A DNA stretch of 30,869 nt from a virus. The stretch is from the IMG/VR virus record IMGVR_UViG_3300037628_000508, positions 1 through 30,869 of that record; one strand, 5' to 3'. Of this stretch, positions 3,109-26,938 are shown in pieces. A program made the translations under genes and the position numbers. The notes below the pieces were generated by a model. It searched no databases. It had not been told where the DNA came from and saw nothing but the letters and a program-made list of their open reading frames with translations. Position 1 is the stretch's first letter; every line of letters begins with the position of its first letter.

Positions 3109-3333
3109 ATGGAAGGACTTTTGAAATGGATTGCAGCTAGGCTGAAGGAGCCGAGCAGCTACCAAGGCATTGCGACTATCCTCACGGCCGCAGGGATCTT
3201 TCTATCCCCTGAGCTGTGGCTTGGGATCGGTACAGCGGGTGCTGCCATTGTCGGCCTCATTCAGCTGATCAAGAAGGAACTGCAACCGCCGCCACCGCCC
3301 ATGCGTCCAGGAGGCCCAGGAGGGACCGTATGA
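3109..3333 (+). CDS. holin-like two-helix membrane protein
   Basis: The 74-aa product has an amphipathic charged N terminus (WIAARLKEPSSY), two hydrophobic segments at about residues 18-32 and 36-53, a basic IKKE turn and a proline-rich tail. Size, the KEPSSYxG start and the LSPELW linker match small phage holins that pierce the inner membrane to trigger lysis. An excellent AAGGAGG lies 7 nt upstream. The stop overlaps the next start (ATGA), coupling it to the exported FN3 protein. No endolysin is recognised beside it. Confidence 0.65.
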   Translation: MEGLLKWIAARLKEPSSYQGIATILTAAGIFLSPELWLGIGTAGAAIVGLIQLIKKELQPPPPPMRPGGPGGTV

Positions 3334-3821
3334 GAAAGCTATTACTTCTGCTTTTCTTTGTAAGCTGTCCAGCGTTTGGGCAAGGGCAACAGATTCAATT
3401 TCCAGCTCCGCTCTTTTGGGACGCGAACACAGATGGGGTGACAGTAGAGTATGGGGCGTACAGTTCCTCGACCTCATGCACGGACCCGAATCCGAGTCCA
3501 GCAAACTGCGTGGCCTTCACCAAGGTAGCGACGGTTTCTCATACTCCGCTGACTATCTGCACTCCCGACTGCATCACCTGGACCGATCCCGGTCCGGTCG
3601 TGTTCGACCAAAGCACGTTCTATCGTGTAACGGCTTTGAACAGCAGCGGGAATGAAAGCGCGTTCTCGGATGAACTGGAGCTCATCTGGCTGGAACCGAC
3701 ACCTGATGTTCCGGGTAAACCTAGAACAACCACCACGCTCACTTTCATCATTCGAGAGAACGGGCCACAGGTGGATGAGGTCGTTGGGCAATTCGTCAGA
3801 GGTTTGAGAACATCGCCCTAG
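3330..3821 (+). CDS. exported FN3-like protein with signal peptide
   Basis: The 163-aa product begins with a textbook signal peptide (MRKLLLLLFFVSCPAFG). A Cys at residue 13 leaves a lipoprotein possible, but the lipobox is imperfect. The rest is beta-rich and ends its domain with YRVTALNSSGNESAFSDE, typical of the last strands of a fibronectin type III fold. Two close Cys pairs suggest disulfides. Coupled to the holin candidate by ATGA, it may act in the periplasm or envelope, in lysis or in surface interactions (inference). Confidence 0.65.
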   Translation: MRKLLLLLFFVSCPAFGQGQQIQFPAPLFWDANTDGVTVEYGAYSSSTSCTDPNPSPANCVAFTKVATVSHTPLTICTPDCITWTDPGPVVFDQSTFYRVTALNSSGNESAFSDELELIWLEPTPDVPGKPRTTTTLTFIIRENGPQVDEVVGQFVRGLRTSP

Positions 3822-3822
3822 C

Positions 3823-3840
3823 TGTCAATTATAATTGACA
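3823..3840. promoter_or_regulatory. 18-bp perfect palindrome TGTCAATTATAATTGACA
   Basis: A perfect 18-bp inverted repeat starts 1 bp after the stop codon of the preceding gene. It shares its TTGACA arm with the first unit of the tandem repeats that follow. It looks like an operator for a dimeric repressor or activator. Confidence 0.65.
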
Positions 3841-3886
3841 ACTTGAAGTCGGTTTATTGTCAACTTCGAGTCGGTTGATTGACAAC
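3835..3886 (+). repeat. 22-bp tandem repeats (iteron-like), 2.4 copies
   Basis: Units start at 3835, 3857 and 3879 with exact 22-bp spacing. Each begins TTGACAAC or TTGTCAAC; the first two continue through CTT(G/C)(A/G)AGTCGGTT. The period is close to two helical turns, so bound proteins would lie on one face. Iterons of replication origins and clustered operators both look like this. No replication initiator is recognised in the window. Confidence 0.7.
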
Positions 3887-3896
3887 TATTTTCATG

Positions 3897-3934
3897 GGGG
3901 GTCCTGGGGACCCCCTCTTAAATTCTTTTAACGA
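3897..3934 (+). terminator. GC-rich hairpin GGGGGTCC/GGACCCCC followed by AT-rich tract
   Basis: An 8-bp perfect stem (3897-3904 with 3908-3915) closes a 3-nt loop and is followed by TCTTAAATTCTTTT. It probably ends transcription of the lysis-type genes upstream. The T-tract is broken, so efficiency is uncertain. Confidence 0.55.
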
Positions 3935-4089
3935 CATACACACACGCCTGTGGTAGTATCCCCGGTGGGAGTCACTCACGGTTATTGTTCACGCAGACCG
4001 TGTCCGGGACTTCACAGGTAGGGGAGTCGTCGGGGGTGAGAGTTCGGCGGCTCCCCGTTATATCGCCAAAATCGTTCAAAGGAGTGGAT
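3935..4089 (+). other. non-coding leader before the 4090 operon
   Basis: About 155 bp without a credible gene. It begins with alternating CACA motifs (ACACACACGCCTGTGG) and ends with AAAGGAG before ATG 4090. No clear -35/-10 pair is visible, although a promoter is expected here because a terminator-like hairpin lies upstream. Confidence 0.4.
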
Positions 4090-4401
4090 ATGGGATTGAG
4101 CGAATCAGACCTTACGGCAGCAAAAGAATCAGGGTCGATCGAACTCGTCACGAAGCACTTGTTCCAAGTTGCGGAGGAGTTGGAAAAACAGACCGAGGCT
4201 TTTACGAAAAGGATGGGGCCGATCCTCAGAGAGCGTAATCCTGAAATTGAAGAGGACAGGGCAAAGATGGTCCCCGCCAACATTCATATCTCACCCGTCA
4301 CTGGCAAGTGCGCCCTGGCCGTTGAGTTGGTGACGGTCTTTCAGAAACTGCGACTGGTCGAAATACAGAACGAAGCGATTTTGAGAAACCTGGACCTCTA
4401 A
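4090..4401 (+). CDS. small helical hypothetical protein
   Basis: The 103-aa product (from ATG 4090) has a charged helix at about residues 18-46 (ELVTKHLFQVAEELEKQTEAF) and a second helix at the end (KLRLVEIQNEAILRNLDL). I chose ATG 4090 because AAAGGAG lies 6 nt upstream and sequence 5' of it lacks coding character; an in-frame ATG at 3985 exists. Its TAA overlaps the next ATG (TAATG), so the pair is co-translated. The function is unknown. Confidence 0.6.
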   Translation: MGLSESDLTAAKESGSIELVTKHLFQVAEELEKQTEAFTKRMGPILRERNPEIEEDRAKMVPANIHISPVTGKCALAVELVTVFQKLRLVEIQNEAILRNLDL

Positions 4402-4877
4402 TGGGCCGCTATGCTTCCAACACCAAAGTCTCATCCGAGAAGTCCCGAAACGAAATTGAACGGACTCTTCAGCGATATGGGGCTAGTGGGTTCGGGTTCT
4501 GGATCGAGGACAACAAGGCTCTTGTCCAATTCCAGATCGAGAACCTCAAAATCGCCTTTAACCTTCCCATGCCTGATCGCAAGAGCGAGGAATTTACCAT
4601 GAGCAGCCATGAAAACGACTGGCAGCGTAAGCCCCTGGCAGCGGAGACCGCTCATAAGCGTTGGGAGCAAGCCTGTCGGCAGCGGTGGAGAGCCCTGGCC
4701 CTCGTCATAAAGGCGAAGCTGGAGGCTATAGATTCCGGGATCAGCACCTTTCAAGAGGAGTTCATGGCCCACATCATGCTACCCGATGGGGTGACCGTGG
4801 GCGAAAAGCTGGTCCCGGGACTGACCGAACTGATGGAAACGGGCAAAATGACCAATAAACTACTCACCGGAAAATAG
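4401..4877 (+). CDS. conserved hypothetical phage protein (MGRYAxNT family)
   Basis: The 158-aa product starts MGRYASNTKVSSEKSRNEIE and continues with RTLQRYGASGF, a central PMPDR motif, and a C-terminal region with WEQACRQRWRALALVIKAKLEAI, FMAHIMLPDG and TVGE. I recall this block order from a family found in many phages and prophages, with no assigned function. The product is hydrophilic, probably cytoplasmic, and coupled to the preceding gene by TAATG. Confidence 0.75.
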   Translation: MGRYASNTKVSSEKSRNEIERTLQRYGASGFGFWIEDNKALVQFQIENLKIAFNLPMPDRKSEEFTMSSHENDWQRKPLAAETAHKRWEQACRQRWRALALVIKAKLEAIDSGISTFQEEFMAHIMLPDGVTVGEKLVPGLTELMETGKMTNKLLTGK

Positions 4878-4997: not shown

Positions 4998-5255
4998 ATG
5001 ACACCGACAGCAACCCTTGAGAAACCGAAACACACACTGGCTTTCATGGACATTAAAGAAGGGGACGTGAAGCTCCAGTGGGACCCAGACGACAAAGACG
5101 AGATCGCAGCAGCGCAGCTCACCTTCGACAAGCTGAAGAAGAAAGGCTACGCCTTCTTCAAGATGAACTTTGGAGGGAAGAAGGGCGAGAAGATATCCTC
5201 ATTCGACCCGCAGATTGAGAGCATCCTGGGAATCCCTCAAACCGTTGGAGGGTAG
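4998..5255 (+). CDS. conserved small phage protein
   Basis: The 85-aa product contains GDVKLQWDPDDKDEIAAAQ, FDKLKKKGYAFFKM, GKKGEKISSFDP and a C-terminal IPQTVGG. This resembles, from memory, a small protein common in phages and integrative elements (GDxKxxWDxDxxDEV and FDxxxxKGY blocks), of unknown function. It has an excellent ribosome binding site (AAAAAGGAGAACC). The GGAGGG near its 3' end can serve the TTG start of the next gene. Confidence 0.7.
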   Translation: MTPTATLEKPKHTLAFMDIKEGDVKLQWDPDDKDEIAAAQLTFDKLKKKGYAFFKMNFGGKKGEKISSFDPQIESILGIPQTVGG

Positions 5256-5257
5256 CC

Positions 5258-6259
5258 TTGGGCTTCTGGCAGAACTTACTCGGCTCAATGGGCGCAGGAG
5301 CCCTGTTTGGAGGGAAACGAGTGGCAGGTGATCATCCAGTTACTCCCGTAGGCGCAGCTGCTGGCGGGAATCTCAACCTCGCACAGTACACAACAGCGAC
5401 CACCAACAATCCCGGTACAGCGAACATTTCCTGGGATACTGGCGGGGCTCTGTCTGTGATGACCAACAACAACTTCTACATTGAGCCGGGAGCGAATGTG
5501 ACCATCCAGCCAGGGGCCTTGGGTGGATCTGCCACGATCAGGACCCACTATGACAACAACACAATGGACCGCCTGATCTACTTCGGCAACGGAACGAGGG
5601 GAGCTGGCACGGCGGATACCATCTTTACCAACGGGACAACGACCACAGCAGCTATACAGGACCTCCGTATCCATGAGCACGAATGGCGGATGCAGGAGAC
5701 CGCGAGACACGCGCAGCGGTATATCCAGGGCAGGATCAATGACCATCTGAATCAGCACATCGACAACCAACTTGGAGCGCAGCTTCAGGGACAGCCTCAA
5801 CAGAGATTCAACACGGACAACTATGAGGCCGCTCTGAATGCTCATGCTCTCCGTCAGCAAGCCGATATCTACCGTCCCTTCGGAGGCGGTTTGGTCGGTC
5901 GGCATCCCGCACCGCCCACTCTGGACACTCCCCGCGCTATTGCCGAGGTCCGCGGAAATAAACTCCTGAAGAATATCCTGGGCGATATCCTTCACCGGCA
6001 CTACGAAAAGCACGGATATGTGGACTTGCCGAGCATCCAAAAGCCAGGGGTAGGCTTTAGGCTCAGAGCGCACCGAAGAATTGGACTTCTGAAACAGGAC
6101 CGCCAGGGTAAATGGATCGAGCAGAAGGAGAGCCTCTGTATTCATGCTGCTGGCGGTTATTGGGTCGAGGGAGATCAGGTCGGTATCCACTACATGCTCT
6201 GTCAGTGTGACGAAACGAAACTCTGGAAACAGGCAATCGTTCATCGGGTAGCAGCATGA
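5258..6259 (+). CDS. hypothetical protein, possibly virion-associated
   Basis: The 333-aa product starts at TTG 5258, 2 nt after the previous stop, with GGAGGG about 8 nt upstream. Residues 10-150 are rich in Gly, Asn and Thr, as in virion or fibre-like proteins. Residues 155-215 are rich in Gln/His with a helical look. A more compact basic domain follows from about residue 230 (LLKNILGDILHRHYEKHGYVDL). I recognise no family. Its TGA overlaps the RHH gene start (ATGA). Confidence 0.6.
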   Translation: MGFWQNLLGSMGAGALFGGKRVAGDHPVTPVGAAAGGNLNLAQYTTATTNNPGTANISWDTGGALSVMTNNNFYIEPGANVTIQPGALGGSATIRTHYDNNTMDRLIYFGNGTRGAGTADTIFTNGTTTTAAIQDLRIHEHEWRMQETARHAQRYIQGRINDHLNQHIDNQLGAQLQGQPQQRFNTDNYEAALNAHALRQQADIYRPFGGGLVGRHPAPPTLDTPRAIAEVRGNKLLKNILGDILHRHYEKHGYVDLPSIQKPGVGFRLRAHRRIGLLKQDRQGKWIEQKESLCIHAAGGYWVEGDQVGIHYMLCQCDETKLWKQAIVHRVAA

Positions 6260-6426
6260 CCAAAGACTCAGTCCACATGATCAAACCAGGGCGTACGATG
6301 GTGCGCCGAAACTACTTCATAGAGCTTCGACAGTTGCCCCTACTCGAGAAGGAAGCGAAAAAGAAAAACGTCAGCCAGGGCGAGATTGTCAGGAGGGCGA
6401 TTGACGCTTACCTTGTCGGGTCTTAG
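6256..6426 (+). CDS. ribbon-helix-helix (Arc/CopG-type) DNA-binding protein
   Basis: The 56-aa product fits the ribbon-helix-helix fold: a basic lead, a beta strand (RRNYFIEL), helix one (LPLLEKEAKKKN), the turn VSQGE and helix two (IVRRAIDAYLV). RHH proteins bind DNA as dimers through the paired strands. ATG 6256 overlaps the upstream TGA, and the 3' end overlaps the next gene by 26 bp. Likely role: transcriptional repressor or copy-control type regulator acting on one of the dyads in this window (inference). Confidence 0.8.
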   Translation: MTKDSVHMIKPGRTMVRRNYFIELRQLPLLEKEAKKKNVSQGEIVRRAIDAYLVGS

Positions 6427-8431: not shown

Positions 8432-8788
8432 ATGGCTGAGACAGCAAAAAGGAAACCGCTCCCAAAAGGAGTGACCGAAGCTCAACGAGTCGCCGATATC
8501 CAGGCCGGTCGAAGTGAACGTGCCGGTCACGCAATGGTCAAGAGGAGCCCCCCACCCAAGCGAAGCGTTTCCGACATTGTCTTCGGCGCAGGCAGAGGCA
8601 TTGGTCAGGCACTTCGAGGAGCCGTGTTTCCCAAATCCGAAACAGAAAGGCAGAAGAAGCTCAAGGAAGCTAGAGAGGCAGCGAGAGGTGGAGCAGCCAG
8701 GGGAGCCACTGAATCGCTTCCTGTTGGCAGGGCCATGAAGAAGCGTAAATCCACCCGCAAGTCCAATCGAAACTCAGGGAGGAGGTAA
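8432..8788 (+). CDS. small basic-tail protein 1
   Basis: The 118-aa, strongly basic product ends in KKRKSTRKSNRNSGRR. The centre has a Gly/Ala-rich stretch (DIVFGAGRGIGQALRGAVF) and a charged helix (ETERQKKLKEAREAARGGAARGA). It is the first of five consecutive genes with related C-terminal tails. ATAGGAGG precedes the ATG. The last codons and stop (GGG AGG AGG TAA) form the ribosome binding site of the next gene, which starts 2 nt later. No known family; DNA binding or capsid incorporation is possible from the charge. Confidence 0.75.
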   Translation: MAETAKRKPLPKGVTEAQRVADIQAGRSERAGHAMVKRSPPPKRSVSDIVFGAGRGIGQALRGAVFPKSETERQKKLKEAREAARGGAARGATESLPVGRAMKKRKSTRKSNRNSGRR

Positions 8789-8790
8789 TC

Positions 8791-9180
8791 ATGGCTGGTA
8801 ATGCAATCAAGGCGTTTAGAGCGAAAGGGCAAGCAAAGAAGGCCGCAAAGCGAAGGGCCAAGACTGATCTCCCGCACGGCAGTTACCGAAAAATAGAAAT
8901 GCACCGGGGGAAAGAGATCATTCCAAAGAAGTCAAATCCGACTAGGGAAGCCTTTCTTGCTGAACATCAGGGAGCTGGCAGTTTGGCTGGATTCTATATG
9001 GCGAAGAAGTCCAAGCGAGAGCACAAAAAGTTCAGTCCTATCGGCTTAGGACGGACCAAGGAGGGCAGAACCCCCAGGAGTCCCAAAGTTCCCTTTGAGC
9101 GGGGTCGCATTGGTCTTAAGCCCATACGAAAGAAAACCCGCAAGTCCAGTCGTGACTCAGCCCGCAAGTCAGGGAGGTAG
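8791..9180 (+). CDS. small basic-tail protein 2
   Basis: The 129-aa product is basic throughout, with an N-terminal KAFRAKGQAKKAAKRRAK helix. Its tail has a doubled unit, RKSSRDSARKSGR. Middle residues (about 50-70, EAFLAEHQGAGSLAGFYM) are less charged and may form the folded part. The ribosome binding site is supplied by the 3' end of the previous gene, and its own GGGAGG tail codons serve the gene at 9184. The function is unknown. Confidence 0.75.
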   Translation: MAGNAIKAFRAKGQAKKAAKRRAKTDLPHGSYRKIEMHRGKEIIPKKSNPTREAFLAEHQGAGSLAGFYMAKKSKREHKKFSPIGLGRTKEGRTPRSPKVPFERGRIGLKPIRKKTRKSSRDSARKSGR

Positions 9181-9183
9181 CCA

Positions 9184-9378
9184 ATGACTCATGTACCGCG
9201 TGATCCAGGACCAGCAAATAATCCAAAGCATGAAATGTCGGGACCGCTTCGAATGGGACCTAAAAAGTTAGCCAAACGAATCTTTGGACCAAGGAAAGAT
9301 CGACAAGCAAAACGTGAGGCGAAACTCATGCCCAAGCGAGGATCGGGACGGAAGCCTATTCGCAAGCCAGGGAGATAG
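9184..9378 (+). CDS. small basic-tail protein 3
   Basis: The 64-aa product is the shortest of the set: a Pro/Asn-rich start (THVPRDPGPANNPKHEM), a basic middle (GPKKLAKRIFGPRKDRQAKR) and the tail SGRKPIRKPGR, a Pro variant of the SGR ending. It starts 3 nt after the previous stop, and its GGGAG codons precede the next ATG. It may be mostly disordered, and would be expected to bind nucleic acid or acidic proteins (inference). Confidence 0.7.
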   Translation: MTHVPRDPGPANNPKHEMSGPLRMGPKKLAKRIFGPRKDRQAKREAKLMPKRGSGRKPIRKPGR

Positions 9379-9381
9379 CCA

Positions 9382-9774
9382 ATGGCCGAGAAGCTCAGAA
9401 TCATGCCCAAGAGGAGAAGGAAGGGCCTGAAGCGTACCCCAACCAAGATCATGGCGAGTTCGGCCTCCCCGATCCCAGGTAAGGGCCTGTTCACCAGGGA
9501 CACCCGCCTTGTCAGCGTCACCGGAGGCAGGGGCAAAGTGGCCGTCAAAAAACGGTTCGAGGCACAAAAGGCCGGTGCACCAGGGCCAGTTCTTTCCGGT
9601 GAGCAAAAGGGTGTGATTAAACGAATGGACGCTCAAATTGCGCGGGATCAGCGCGTTCAATCGCTCAAGAAGCGAGCCGGTACTACAGTCTATGGCCGCG
9701 CTGCGAAGAAACAAAGAGAAGAACATAAGAGAGCGAAATCCCGCAAGTCCAGTCGCAAGTCAGGGAGACATTGA
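9382..9774 (+). CDS. small basic-tail protein 4
   Basis: The 130-aa product has a very basic start (IMPKRRRKGLKRTPTK), a less charged middle with IPGKGLFTRDTRLVSV, a helix (SGEQKGVIKRMDAQIARDQR) and the tail KSRKSSRKSGRH. The tail is encoded by the same DNA repeats as in protein 2. Its stop is directly followed by the next ATG. There is no family match that I know. Confidence 0.75.
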   Translation: MAEKLRIMPKRRRKGLKRTPTKIMASSASPIPGKGLFTRDTRLVSVTGGRGKVAVKKRFEAQKAGAPGPVLSGEQKGVIKRMDAQIARDQRVQSLKKRAGTTVYGRAAKKQREEHKRAKSRKSSRKSGRH

Positions 9775-10263
9775 ATGGCCGAAGAAACCCACAGCACCAC
9801 AGCACAAGAAGAAAAAAAGAAAAAGGGCAGTATCCTCGGCACAGTGGGCCGCGCCATTGGCAGGGGAGCGAAAAGGACCGCTGGTGCTGCAAAGAAAGCA
9901 GTCTTGACTGATCCCCGCGTCAAGCGCGTACGGGAAGTCTTCAAGGACACACCGGCAACGACAACGACAACTCCTCAACCTAAAGGCCCACTCACCAAGG
10001 AAAAGATTGAGGCCGCAAGGAAGAAGCCAGTCAGCAGGAGAAGAAAGATTATTGGAGGAGCTGCCCGAGGAGTAGGAGGAGCTCTCAGGACCAGGGAAAC
10101 AGGCCGCGAAATGGTAGGAGATGTGATCCCGAAAATCGCTGGAACAGCAGGAACACCTTTGGCTACCGCCTCAGAACGAACAATCCAAGAGTTAAACAGG
10201 CCCTTCAAAAGAAAAGCGACCAGGACCACCAGGCGGTCCACTCGGTCATCAAGTAGGAGGTAA
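9775..10263 (+). CDS. small basic-tail protein 5
   Basis: The 162-aa product has a lysine run (EEKKKKGS), Gly/Ala-rich basic segments (TVGRAIGRGAKRTAGAAKKAV and GGAARGVGGALRTR) and a Thr-rich linker. It ends in RTTRRSTRSSSRR, where Ser/Arg replaces the KSGR of its neighbours. The composition resembles chromatin-condensing proteins. Its end (AGTAGGAGGTAA) provides the ribosome binding site of the next gene at 10266. Confidence 0.75.
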   Translation: MAEETHSTTAQEEKKKKGSILGTVGRAIGRGAKRTAGAAKKAVLTDPRVKRVREVFKDTPATTTTTPQPKGPLTKEKIEAARKKPVSRRRKIIGGAARGVGGALRTRETGREMVGDVIPKIAGTAGTPLATASERTIQELNRPFKRKATRTTRRSTRSSSRR

Positions 10264-20585: not shown

Positions 20586-20804
20586 ATGGCTAAACAACCG
20601 CCCAAAGGAAAAATGCCAGTTGGCCCGAAATTCAAGAGGGTCATGGGCGAGTATGGCAACAGAACACTTCACCATGGCGGTAGTGGTGAAATCGTCAGGG
20701 ACGTAAAGGTAGCTACCGCAATAGCCGCTTCCGAGCAGCGCAAAGCGACTCGGGAGACGCGACGGAAACCACGTCGCTCACAAGGGCGACACAACAGGAG
20801 GTAA
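20586..20804 (+). CDS. small basic-tail protein 6
   Basis: The 72-aa product is basic, with the tail TRETRRKPRRSQGRHNRR. The N-terminal part (PKGKMPVGPKFKRVMGEYG) is also basic. It is preceded by the TTGACA box, and its end (AACAGGAGGTAA) supplies the next ribosome binding site, as in the genes at 8432-10263. The function is unknown, but charge and genetic design tie it to that set. Confidence 0.65.
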   Translation: MAKQPPKGKMPVGPKFKRVMGEYGNRTLHHGGSGEIVRDVKVATAIAASEQRKATRETRRKPRRSQGRHNRR

Positions 20805-22879: not shown

Positions 22880-23848
22880 ATGGCACTAACCTTTGATGAC
22901 ATTAGTTCGAAGACGAACCGATTCATCATCCCGCGGTTGGTGGACAACGTCTACGAGGCTTCTCCGGTCTTCACTCGCTTGCGTACTCGAAACGCCGAGC
23001 GTTTTGAAGGTGGTCGAACGATTCGTCATCCGATCATCTACGCCGAGCTGACTGGTGATGCCTTTAGCCGAGGTGGGACGTTTGATACGTCGTATGTTGA
23101 GACCGACACCGCTGTCGAGGTCAACGTCAAGTACTACTACGTCAACGTCACCCTCTTCGGTACCGACAATGTTCTCAATCGAGGTCCGGAAGCTGCTATG
23201 TCCTATGTGGAAAGCAAACTCGTCAATGCCGCAGGCAAAATGGCGAAGTTGTTGGCCACGGATATGTACCTGGATGGCCAGGGAACCGACAGTTCAACTC
23301 TCCAGTTGGATGGAATGTCGGCGGCTTTCGACAACGGGAATAATTTCGGTTCTTACGGCGGCATCGACAGGAGCGATATCGTTCCTGACGGGACGAACAA
23401 TGCAGGGATCAACGGCTTCCAGCTGTCGCTTCCGACATTGACACTGAGCGGGGTGCAAACCGCGTTTGGTGCGGCCTGGTTCGGTGCAGAGCACGTCGAT
23501 CTGATGACTTCAGACCAAGAAGTGTGGAATCTGTTCTGGAATAAAATCCAGCCGCAGCAGAGATTCCTCGAGGAATCTTCCGATGTGGCAAAGATCGGGT
23601 TCATGTCGCTTCGATGGAATGGAGCTCAGATGGTCGTGGATCAGTATCAACCTGCACAACAGCTTATTGGCATGAACACGAAACATGCGCAGTTCTGGAT
23701 CACCACCAACCGGAAGTACCAATTTGGGTTCACCGGATGGAAAGAGGCCCAGAACACGGATGACGTGGCCGGCCAGTACCTGTTCGCAGGAAACCTACTG
23801 TTCCCCGCTCCTCGCCTCAATTTCATTCTGACGGATATCGCCAACTAA
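22880..23848 (+). CDS. major capsid protein (HK97-fold type)
   Basis: The 322-aa product forms the capsid shell. It has RFIIPRLVDNVYEASPVFTRLRTRN, FEGGRTIRHPIIYAE, DAFSRGGTFDTSYVETDTA, VKYYYVNVTLFGTDN and GPEAAMSYVESKLVNAAGKMAKLLATDMYLDGQ, a block order I know from phage major capsid proteins. The scaffold precedes it and a decoration-like protein follows. AAGGAGGAAG lies 6-7 nt before the ATG. Length is typical for the fold without a fused scaffold. Confidence 0.88.
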   Translation: MALTFDDISSKTNRFIIPRLVDNVYEASPVFTRLRTRNAERFEGGRTIRHPIIYAELTGDAFSRGGTFDTSYVETDTAVEVNVKYYYVNVTLFGTDNVLNRGPEAAMSYVESKLVNAAGKMAKLLATDMYLDGQGTDSSTLQLDGMSAAFDNGNNFGSYGGIDRSDIVPDGTNNAGINGFQLSLPTLTLSGVQTAFGAAWFGAEHVDLMTSDQEVWNLFWNKIQPQQRFLEESSDVAKIGFMSLRWNGAQMVVDQYQPAQQLIGMNTKHAQFWITTNRKYQFGFTGWKEAQNTDDVAGQYLFAGNLLFPAPRLNFILTDIAN

Positions 23849-26686: not shown

Positions 26687-26938
26687 ATGGTATCGAATAC
26701 AGGGGATATTCCAGGGACCTCCGGAGGGGGGGGGAGCTTACAAAGCTCTCTGGGGTCTACGGCCATGATCGGCATACCAGGAGATATGACTACCTCTGTA
26801 GGCCCTGGTCCGATTGCCAGAAAAAAGAGAAGGGGAGTCAGAAGCCGCAGTTTTTACAATGAAGCTGGACGGGTGAAGAAGCAGAAGCAGGAAAGAAGTA
26901 TGAAGCGGAAAGCGAGAAGGGTGAGCGGTAGAAGATGA
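26687..26938 (+). CDS. small basic-tail protein 7
   Basis: The 83-aa product has a Gly/Ser-rich first half (GDIPGTSGGGGSLQSSLGSTAM) and a very basic second half (ARKKRRGVRSRSF, KKQKQERSMKRKARRVSGRR). The VSGRR ending matches the SGR(R) ends of the proteins at 8432-9180. Its TGA overlaps the next ATG (ATGA). Clean folding is unlikely; it may bind DNA or pack inside the capsid (inference). Confidence 0.65.
   Translation: MVSNTGDIPGTSGGGGSLQSSLGSTAMIGIPGDMTTSVGPGPIARKKRRGVRSRSFYNEAGRVKKQKQERSMKRKARRVSGRR

Follow-up and report, generated by a model that had tools for sequence, protein, structure and literature searches.

The common view of lytic phages is that their programme proceeds whatever the state of the host, with few cases to the contrary, such as that of CtrA. 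The transcription of phage GIL01 is reportedly controlled by host LexA at sites in the phage genome, and phi29 with Spo0A is said to be another precedent for a phage using a host regulator. Direct repeats about two helical turns apart are also found as the iterons of plasmid and phage origins. For phages of Alphaproteobacteria, PMC9437464 describes focused CtrA sites, associated with 'lytic deferment', that unrelated phages acquired independently. On the bacterial side, PMC13373217 describes CapK and CapS, a pair in which ssDNA activates CapK, Ser54 of the STAS protein is then phosphorylated and immune operons are controlled. The phage locus considered here resembles a further kind of site, the operators of a bacterial family of wHTH-GHKL-DUF4325 regulators. 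Within the limits of the literature searched we found no description of DUF4325 operators or of their presence in phages, and one paper naming DUF4325 assigns the domain to a small prophage ORF, with no function given there. Phage sites for host regulators are already known; what appears to be new here is the match to DUF4325-regulator operators in phages.

The window, that is, the whole stretch of DNA analysed, comprises the 30,869 bases of one virus record, whose genes appear from their translations to include terminase-, portal- and coat-like ones, the terminase being backed by a further search. The original prediction described an 18-bp perfect palindrome, three TTGWCAAC boxes at 22-bp spacing and a GC-rich hairpin within non-coding sequence at 3823-3934, and all of these elements are present: the boxes start at 3835 (TTGACAAC), 3857 (TTGTCAAC) and 3879 (TTGACAAC), exactly 22 bp apart, the hairpin arms occupy 3896-3904 and 3908-3916, and the stretch lies between an upstream stop at 3821 and the next ORF start at 4090. 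The features of the locus are as follows.

3330..3821, plus strand: upstream gene, a signal-peptide-like small protein whose TAG stop abuts the palindrome
3823..3840, no strand: 18-bp palindrome TGTCAATTATAATTGACA, containing the box word twice, in inverted orientation and 13 bp apart
3834..3844, minus strand: box 1, ATTGACAACTT on the plus strand and AAGTTGTCAAT on the minus strand, overlapping the right arm of the palindrome
3856..3866, minus strand: box 2, ATTGTCAACTT on the plus strand and AAGTTGACAAT on the minus strand, 22 bp past box 1
3878..3888, minus strand: box 3, ATTGACAACTA on the plus strand and TAGTTGTCAAT on the minus strand, 22 bp past box 2
3896..3916, plus strand: GC-rich hairpin, the acceptor-stem remnant of a tRNA-Glu(CTC)-like gene whose interior is lost here
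3931..3959, plus strand: promoter-like sequence (ACGACA, 17 bp, TAGTAT), read by eye and conserved in relatives
4090..4401, plus strand: next downstream gene, about 103 aa, function not assigned

The palindrome starts 1 bp past the upstream stop codon, and the first box doubles as its right arm. Since TTGACAA and TTGTCAA are reverse complements of each other, the three boxes represent one near-palindromic 7-mer, two of the three carrying the rarer central base. In orientation the array points away from the genes downstream, the next start codon being about 200 bp off, and it lies about 45 bp upstream of the promoter-like sequence, for which a consensus promoter scan of the window gave no match. 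Three TTGWCAA boxes 22 bp apart are more than chance would produce: a search for tandem triples of 10-mers with at most one mismatch and equal spacing of 15-40 found one in the window and none in 100 shuffles. The palindrome alone is not beyond chance, because 9 of 100 shuffles contain a perfect palindrome of at least 18 bp and the window itself has a second one of 18 bp, at 23561-23578 inside the coat-gene region. By itself the hairpin is only modestly unusual (-17.8 kcal/mol, z = -2.0; equally stable in 8 of 200 shuffles).

Relatives spanning this junction were collected via two anchors, the protein encoded at 4401-4874 (12 loci) and the downstream promoter-like sequence (16 stretches); one relative is a 108,390-bp record, which is probably complete since its ends share at least 100 bp. 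The exact palindrome is present in all 12 protein-anchored loci and in 14 of the 16 promoter-anchored stretches, the exceptions being L223 and L224, and many relatives have it lengthened to 22 bp (GCTGTCAATTATAATTGACAGC). The 22-bp array, on the other hand, is an optional part of the locus: boxes at this spacing follow the palindrome in four of the 16 relatives (L057, L059, L060 and L015), and the remaining 12 have no array at this place. L057 differs in spacer sequence but retains intact boxes and a spacing of exactly 22. In L062 the palindrome has no boxes beside it; about 1.3 kb downstream (L062 7361-7389) there is a TTGTCAACC pair at 22 bp, directly preceding the ribosome-binding site and ATG of a gene matching that at window position 4998; the window is without boxes at the corresponding spot. 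In a census of 463,487 bases (47 family and palindrome-bearing loci, duplicates included), all box pairs at 20-23 bp stood at 22 apart from a single pair at 23, in L214, a different virus. Preservation of the repeat spacing in relatives, on which the original prediction was to stand or fall, therefore gave a mixed answer: the spacing is always exactly 22 where repeats exist, but most relatives lack the repeats. Two other viral contigs (L214 9557-9607 and L212 8307-8335) bear the same 18-bp palindrome together with nearby TTGWCAA boxes. P26218 and three Manatee Spring records, which have related coat proteins, contain no TTGWCAA pair closer than 60 bp.

The alignment of relatives shows the hairpin to be the remnant of a tRNA-Glu gene. 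ARAGORN calls a tRNA-Glu(CTC) gene at its position in 10 of the 16 relatives (L056, L057, L059, L061, L062, L064, L065, L222, L223 and L224), and four more (L058, L063, L066 and L216) have alignable tRNA-like sequence with no such call. L060 and L015 share the short version of the window, in which ARAGORN found no tRNA and which retains the 5' part and the 3' acceptor strand, with the interior missing. As L223 and L224, which are without the palindrome, do have the tRNA, loss of the interior would be the simpler order of events. The hairpin therefore has no proven part in the control region, and what had been described as one compact control region holds all its parts but is a composite. An intrinsic terminator was also considered for the hairpin and rejected, given that the tail TCTTAAAT has no T run, that a terminator scan did not list the hairpin and that it is a tRNA remnant. 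The tRNA-Glu(CTC)-like gene of the relatives (L059 9453-9526 and others) has the anticodon loop CGCTCAA, with G at position 33 for the usual U in the copies inspected by eye, and is perhaps a non-standard tRNA of some kind, such as a decoy. L056, L061 and L062 have an additional cassette, about 200 bp long and containing a small ORF, between tRNA and promoter-like sequence. A CCCTCTTAAATT-like sequence flanks it on either side, as though the tRNA 3' end served as a recombination point.

A GTDB scan with the stricter word (TTGTCAAC/TTGWCAAC at 22 bp) yielded 32 bacterial stretches. Among those with diverged spacers, 11 of 14 adjoin a gene of one regulator family (L228, L229, L232, L234, L237, L243, L247, L248, L253, L255 and L256, as against L238, L245 and L254), compared with one of the 18 with near-identical spacers (L235). 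Going by record titles, the array-bearing bacteria include Acidobacteriota, Planctomycetota, Proteobacteria, Eisenbacteria and one cyanobacterium. All seven regulators scanned have DUF4325 (PF14213; E 1e-12 to 1e-16) and GHKL-ATPase matches and are 40-58% identical to the first; their architecture is an N-terminal winged helix (several weak Pfam matches), a GHKL ATPase and a C-terminal STAS-like DUF4325. The array sits just ahead of the regulator gene's own start codon and takes the form of TTGACAA at 21-22 bp spacing, usually in three copies, with flanks (T)AAGG...T/A. In a protein-only search covering 274 genomes of a single class, 28 proved to have a family member. Upstream of 23 protein-found regulators, exact TTGACAA pairs at 21-22 bp were present in eight (L257, L258, L259, L260, L266, L269, L271 and L278, L257 being the L253 gene again), a different word in a layout similar by eye in seven (CTTTAAGAAA in L261, L262, L264 and L265; TTGTCGA in L263; TTTACA in L268 and L270), and palindromes, nothing evident or a truncated region in the remaining eight. 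The recognition-helix residues change with the operator word, from SRQA-NKH with TTGACAA to TPQA-NSH with CTTTAAGAAA, as expected if the helix reads the DNA directly. Of 21 genomes with a regulator, 16 have no TTGACAA-N14/15-TTGWCAA match other than those at the regulator; matches elsewhere occur in G214, G320, G321, G323 and G324. PADLOC gave no convincing match to the regulator, and a PDB sequence search with it gave one match, at E 0.13. The ends of IS21-type transposons were suspected at one point, as L229 and L234, from one genome, share the array with different flanks, and were rejected because the side common to both is the start of the regulator gene. In two bacterial genomes (L256 3913-4788 and L317) a divergent, IS1-like transposase-related gene shares the operator array.

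In their GHKL kinase, STAS and (w)HTH domains, in wHTH autoregulation and in chromosomal control of stress or immunity, these regulators resemble CapK/CapS (PMC13373217). CapK and CapS are two proteins with TTAA palindromes, whereas the DUF4325 regulator is one chain with TTGACAA direct repeats and, from our reading of the alignment, its STAS helix is without a serine equivalent to the one needed for CapK/CapS signalling; the signal can therefore not be borrowed from CapK/CapS. The window array was also considered as a promoter regulated by CapK-CapS, and this was set aside, as its box word differs from the TTAA half-sites and the virus records searched have no wHTH-GHKL-DUF4325 gene.

The phage array shares with the bacterial wHTH-GHKL-DUF4325 operators the word, the 21-22 bp spacing, the three copies and the flanks. 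Using a matrix built from 13 operator units of six protein-found regulators (L258, L259, L260, L266, L269 and L271) and scoring triples at 21-22 bp, we found that the window array is the top triple of the window, at 34.7 bits on the minus strand, the best of 200 shuffles (first-order Markov sequences) reaching 19.6. The same array is top in the 108-kb relative (31.1 bits at 89026; best of 40 shuffles 18.4). Thirteen other phage arrays score 39-55 bits, which places the window array, judged by matrix score, as a real but weak member of the operator class, lower than all of these. It has the three boxes at 21-22 bp of a TTGACAA-class operator, but whereas the bacterial operators stand before the start codon of the regulator, the phage array reads away and is joined to a palindrome, and neither the window nor the 108-kb relative has a regulator gene; we therefore call it operator-like and not an autoregulatory operator. 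A search with a seven-sequence alignment, which recovered both positive controls, found no wHTH-GHKL-DUF4325 gene in 37 virus records, the window and the 108-kb relative included, and tblastn with one regulator likewise failed to find one among 50,697 phage and 72,556 plasmid records. Many virus records are fragments, so that absence means little for any one of them, though not for all together. With the gene absent from the virus records searched, a host chromosomal protein is the simplest candidate for the ligand, and the host's regulator is the likely ligand of the window array.

From these matches we infer binding, the host identity of the protein, and the direction and purpose of regulation; we give an even chance to the reading that palindrome and boxes together make up an operator cluster, one read by a host wHTH-GHKL-STAS (DUF4325) regulator and borrowed by the phage to sense its host. 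Dimers of the host regulator would lie side by side on the boxes, two helical turns apart, and dimer-dimer contacts would produce a repressing array, as they would on the regulator's own promoter. The promoter-like sequence at 3931-3959 would serve the genes from 4090 onward, and phage transcription of the neighbouring genes would be delayed or tuned by host state, for which CtrA and LexA provide precedents. The GIL01 case differs in its LexA/SOS boxes, its temperate phage and its helper protein gp7. Cooperative binding on one face of the helix and a regulatory role, both part of the original prediction, would fit this picture, as word, spacing and flanks equal those of the bacterial autoregulatory operators. 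Against it, the orientation of the window array and its distance from a start codon differ from those of the bacterial operators, its matrix score is low, its spacers are near-identical, and 12 of 16 relatives are without it at this place. The palindrome is tied to the regulator by the common half-site only, and may serve a different protein.

Rather unlikely, though the strongest of the alternatives, is that the array is the operator of a repressor or activator encoded by the phage itself, reading the same word by convergence, which would make the locus an ordinary phage switch. A candidate is at hand in the RHH_1 protein (E 1.4e-4) encoded at 6256-6426, 2.4 kb downstream in the window, and the occurrence of the palindrome in 14 of 16 relatives, even those without an array, is what a resident dimeric regulator would lead one to expect. 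However, array flanks and spacing match those of bacterial wHTH operators, and no record among the 37 virus records has a convincing match to that winged helix alone, the best (E 0.007, partial) falling within a 1,079-residue frame of G030. An unrelated winged-helix protein, phage- or host-encoded, could also read the same word.

The case for a host regulator draws further on arrays in other phages. A scan of IMG/VR for TTGWCAA triples at 22 bp returned 53 stretches, some of them coding or simple repeats, which we divided into diverged (spacer identity of at most 8 of 14 or 15) and tandem-like ones (the remainder), by the rule used for the bacterial stretches too. The diverged viral set comprises 24 loci with 22 distinct arrays, and over their 66 units the flanks, which the search pattern did not select, are biased towards A at -4 (65%), A at -3 (74%), G or A at -2 (88%), G at -1 (83%) and T or A at +1 (96%). 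By this rule the window array itself is tandem-like, with near-identical spacers, as are L009, L010 and L015; L008, L016, L020, L021, L030, L041 and L050 have genuine-looking flanks and fall just outside the rule, so are left out of the 22, and L003, L022 and L054 are inside it yet less motif-like. As controls, the same core at 25 bp gave six stretches, one of them diverged, and a scrambled core at 22 bp gave 23, of which 12 were diverged and seven of those one element, although this second control is not fully neutral, as related regulators may have TGTWACA arrays at 22 bp as their operators. A variable-gap scan was not used for counts, the matches listed being mostly multiples of three and simple repeats. 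TGTWACA triples at 22 bp occur in the viral contigs L342, L343, L346-L348, L352 and L354, among others, with one element in seven records, and may belong, as operators, to a different class within the DUF4325 regulator family.

In one large group of these phages the array fills the gap ahead of a late gene, with identities assigned from PHROGs families for representatives: a coat gene in L008, L012, L020 and L040, a portal gene in L023, L035, L042 and L047, and a terminase gene in L021, L034 and L053. In other phages the array faces away from the nearest gene or adjoins replication genes. As with CtrA, then, the sites recur in unrelated phages at focused places; the regulator there is of another class and its binding is shown by experiment in PMC9437464, whereas here the identity of the host regulator comes from sequence match alone. 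On this evidence it is possible, if on the doubtful side, that many unrelated phages carry one three-box operator of the host wHTH-GHKL-STAS regulator, often before packaging or capsid genes, and that it gates late expression. If so, late expression would be gated by what the ATPase and STAS domains report of the host (energy, stress or infection state), and the full-array targets of the regulator in the host would be its own promoter and almost no others.

The number and placing of the arrays also bear on the idea of a decoy, in which the array would titrate the host regulator and disturb its autoregulation or response, with no control of phage genes required. Each of the 31 records searched in full (G001-G031, picked by eye as non-coding-looking among array-bearing IMG/VR matches) contains a single triple and no further pair at 22 bp, and this is true of three records above 100 kb as well; the place of the array varies, also within the family of the window, and some arrays face away from any gene. 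Yet many arrays occupy the gap right ahead of a late-gene start codon, as an operator would, and a single array per genome makes a weak sponge, so that we consider a decoy improbable. More improbable still is an unselected remnant, a functionless tandem duplication of one palindrome arm: units 1 and 2 share 82% identity across 22 bp and most relatives have no array, but the intact boxes and spacing of L057 in the face of a different spacer, and the rise of the same layout in other phages and bacteria, speak against it. An iteron-type replication origin or partition site, as originally put forward, is suggested by direct repeats two helical turns apart beside an AT-rich palindrome, in one copy per genome, and is extremely improbable here, as the array is missing at this place in 12 of 16 relatives, has moved in L062 and, unlike iterons, coincides with no skew switch, the array at 89.0 kb in the 108-kb relative being about 4.7 kb from the GC-skew minimum at 93.8 kb.

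Should the arrays bind the host regulator, as we favour, they would offer a sequence-level handle on how phages of many bacterial phyla sense host state, and a first lead on the role of the uncharacterised DUF4325 family; being short and exact, they are easily found. For the window array itself, word and spacing suggest a response of the phage to a host protein and not to one that it encodes itself.

Two further features of the window were noted. The small ORFs in series at 8432-10263, 20586-20804 and 26687-26938 have similar basic Ser/Arg/Lys tails, for example RKSSRKSGR, which are possibly a common C-terminal tag or DNA-binding tail. Finally, the leader of the gene at 4090 contains a strong hairpin at 4021-4056 (GGGGAGTCGTCG...CGGCGGCTCCCC); an Rfam search gave zero matches, this hairpin included. 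It is possibly a regulatory leader RNA, and is highly conserved in relatives, with few changes among them and the pairing preserved.
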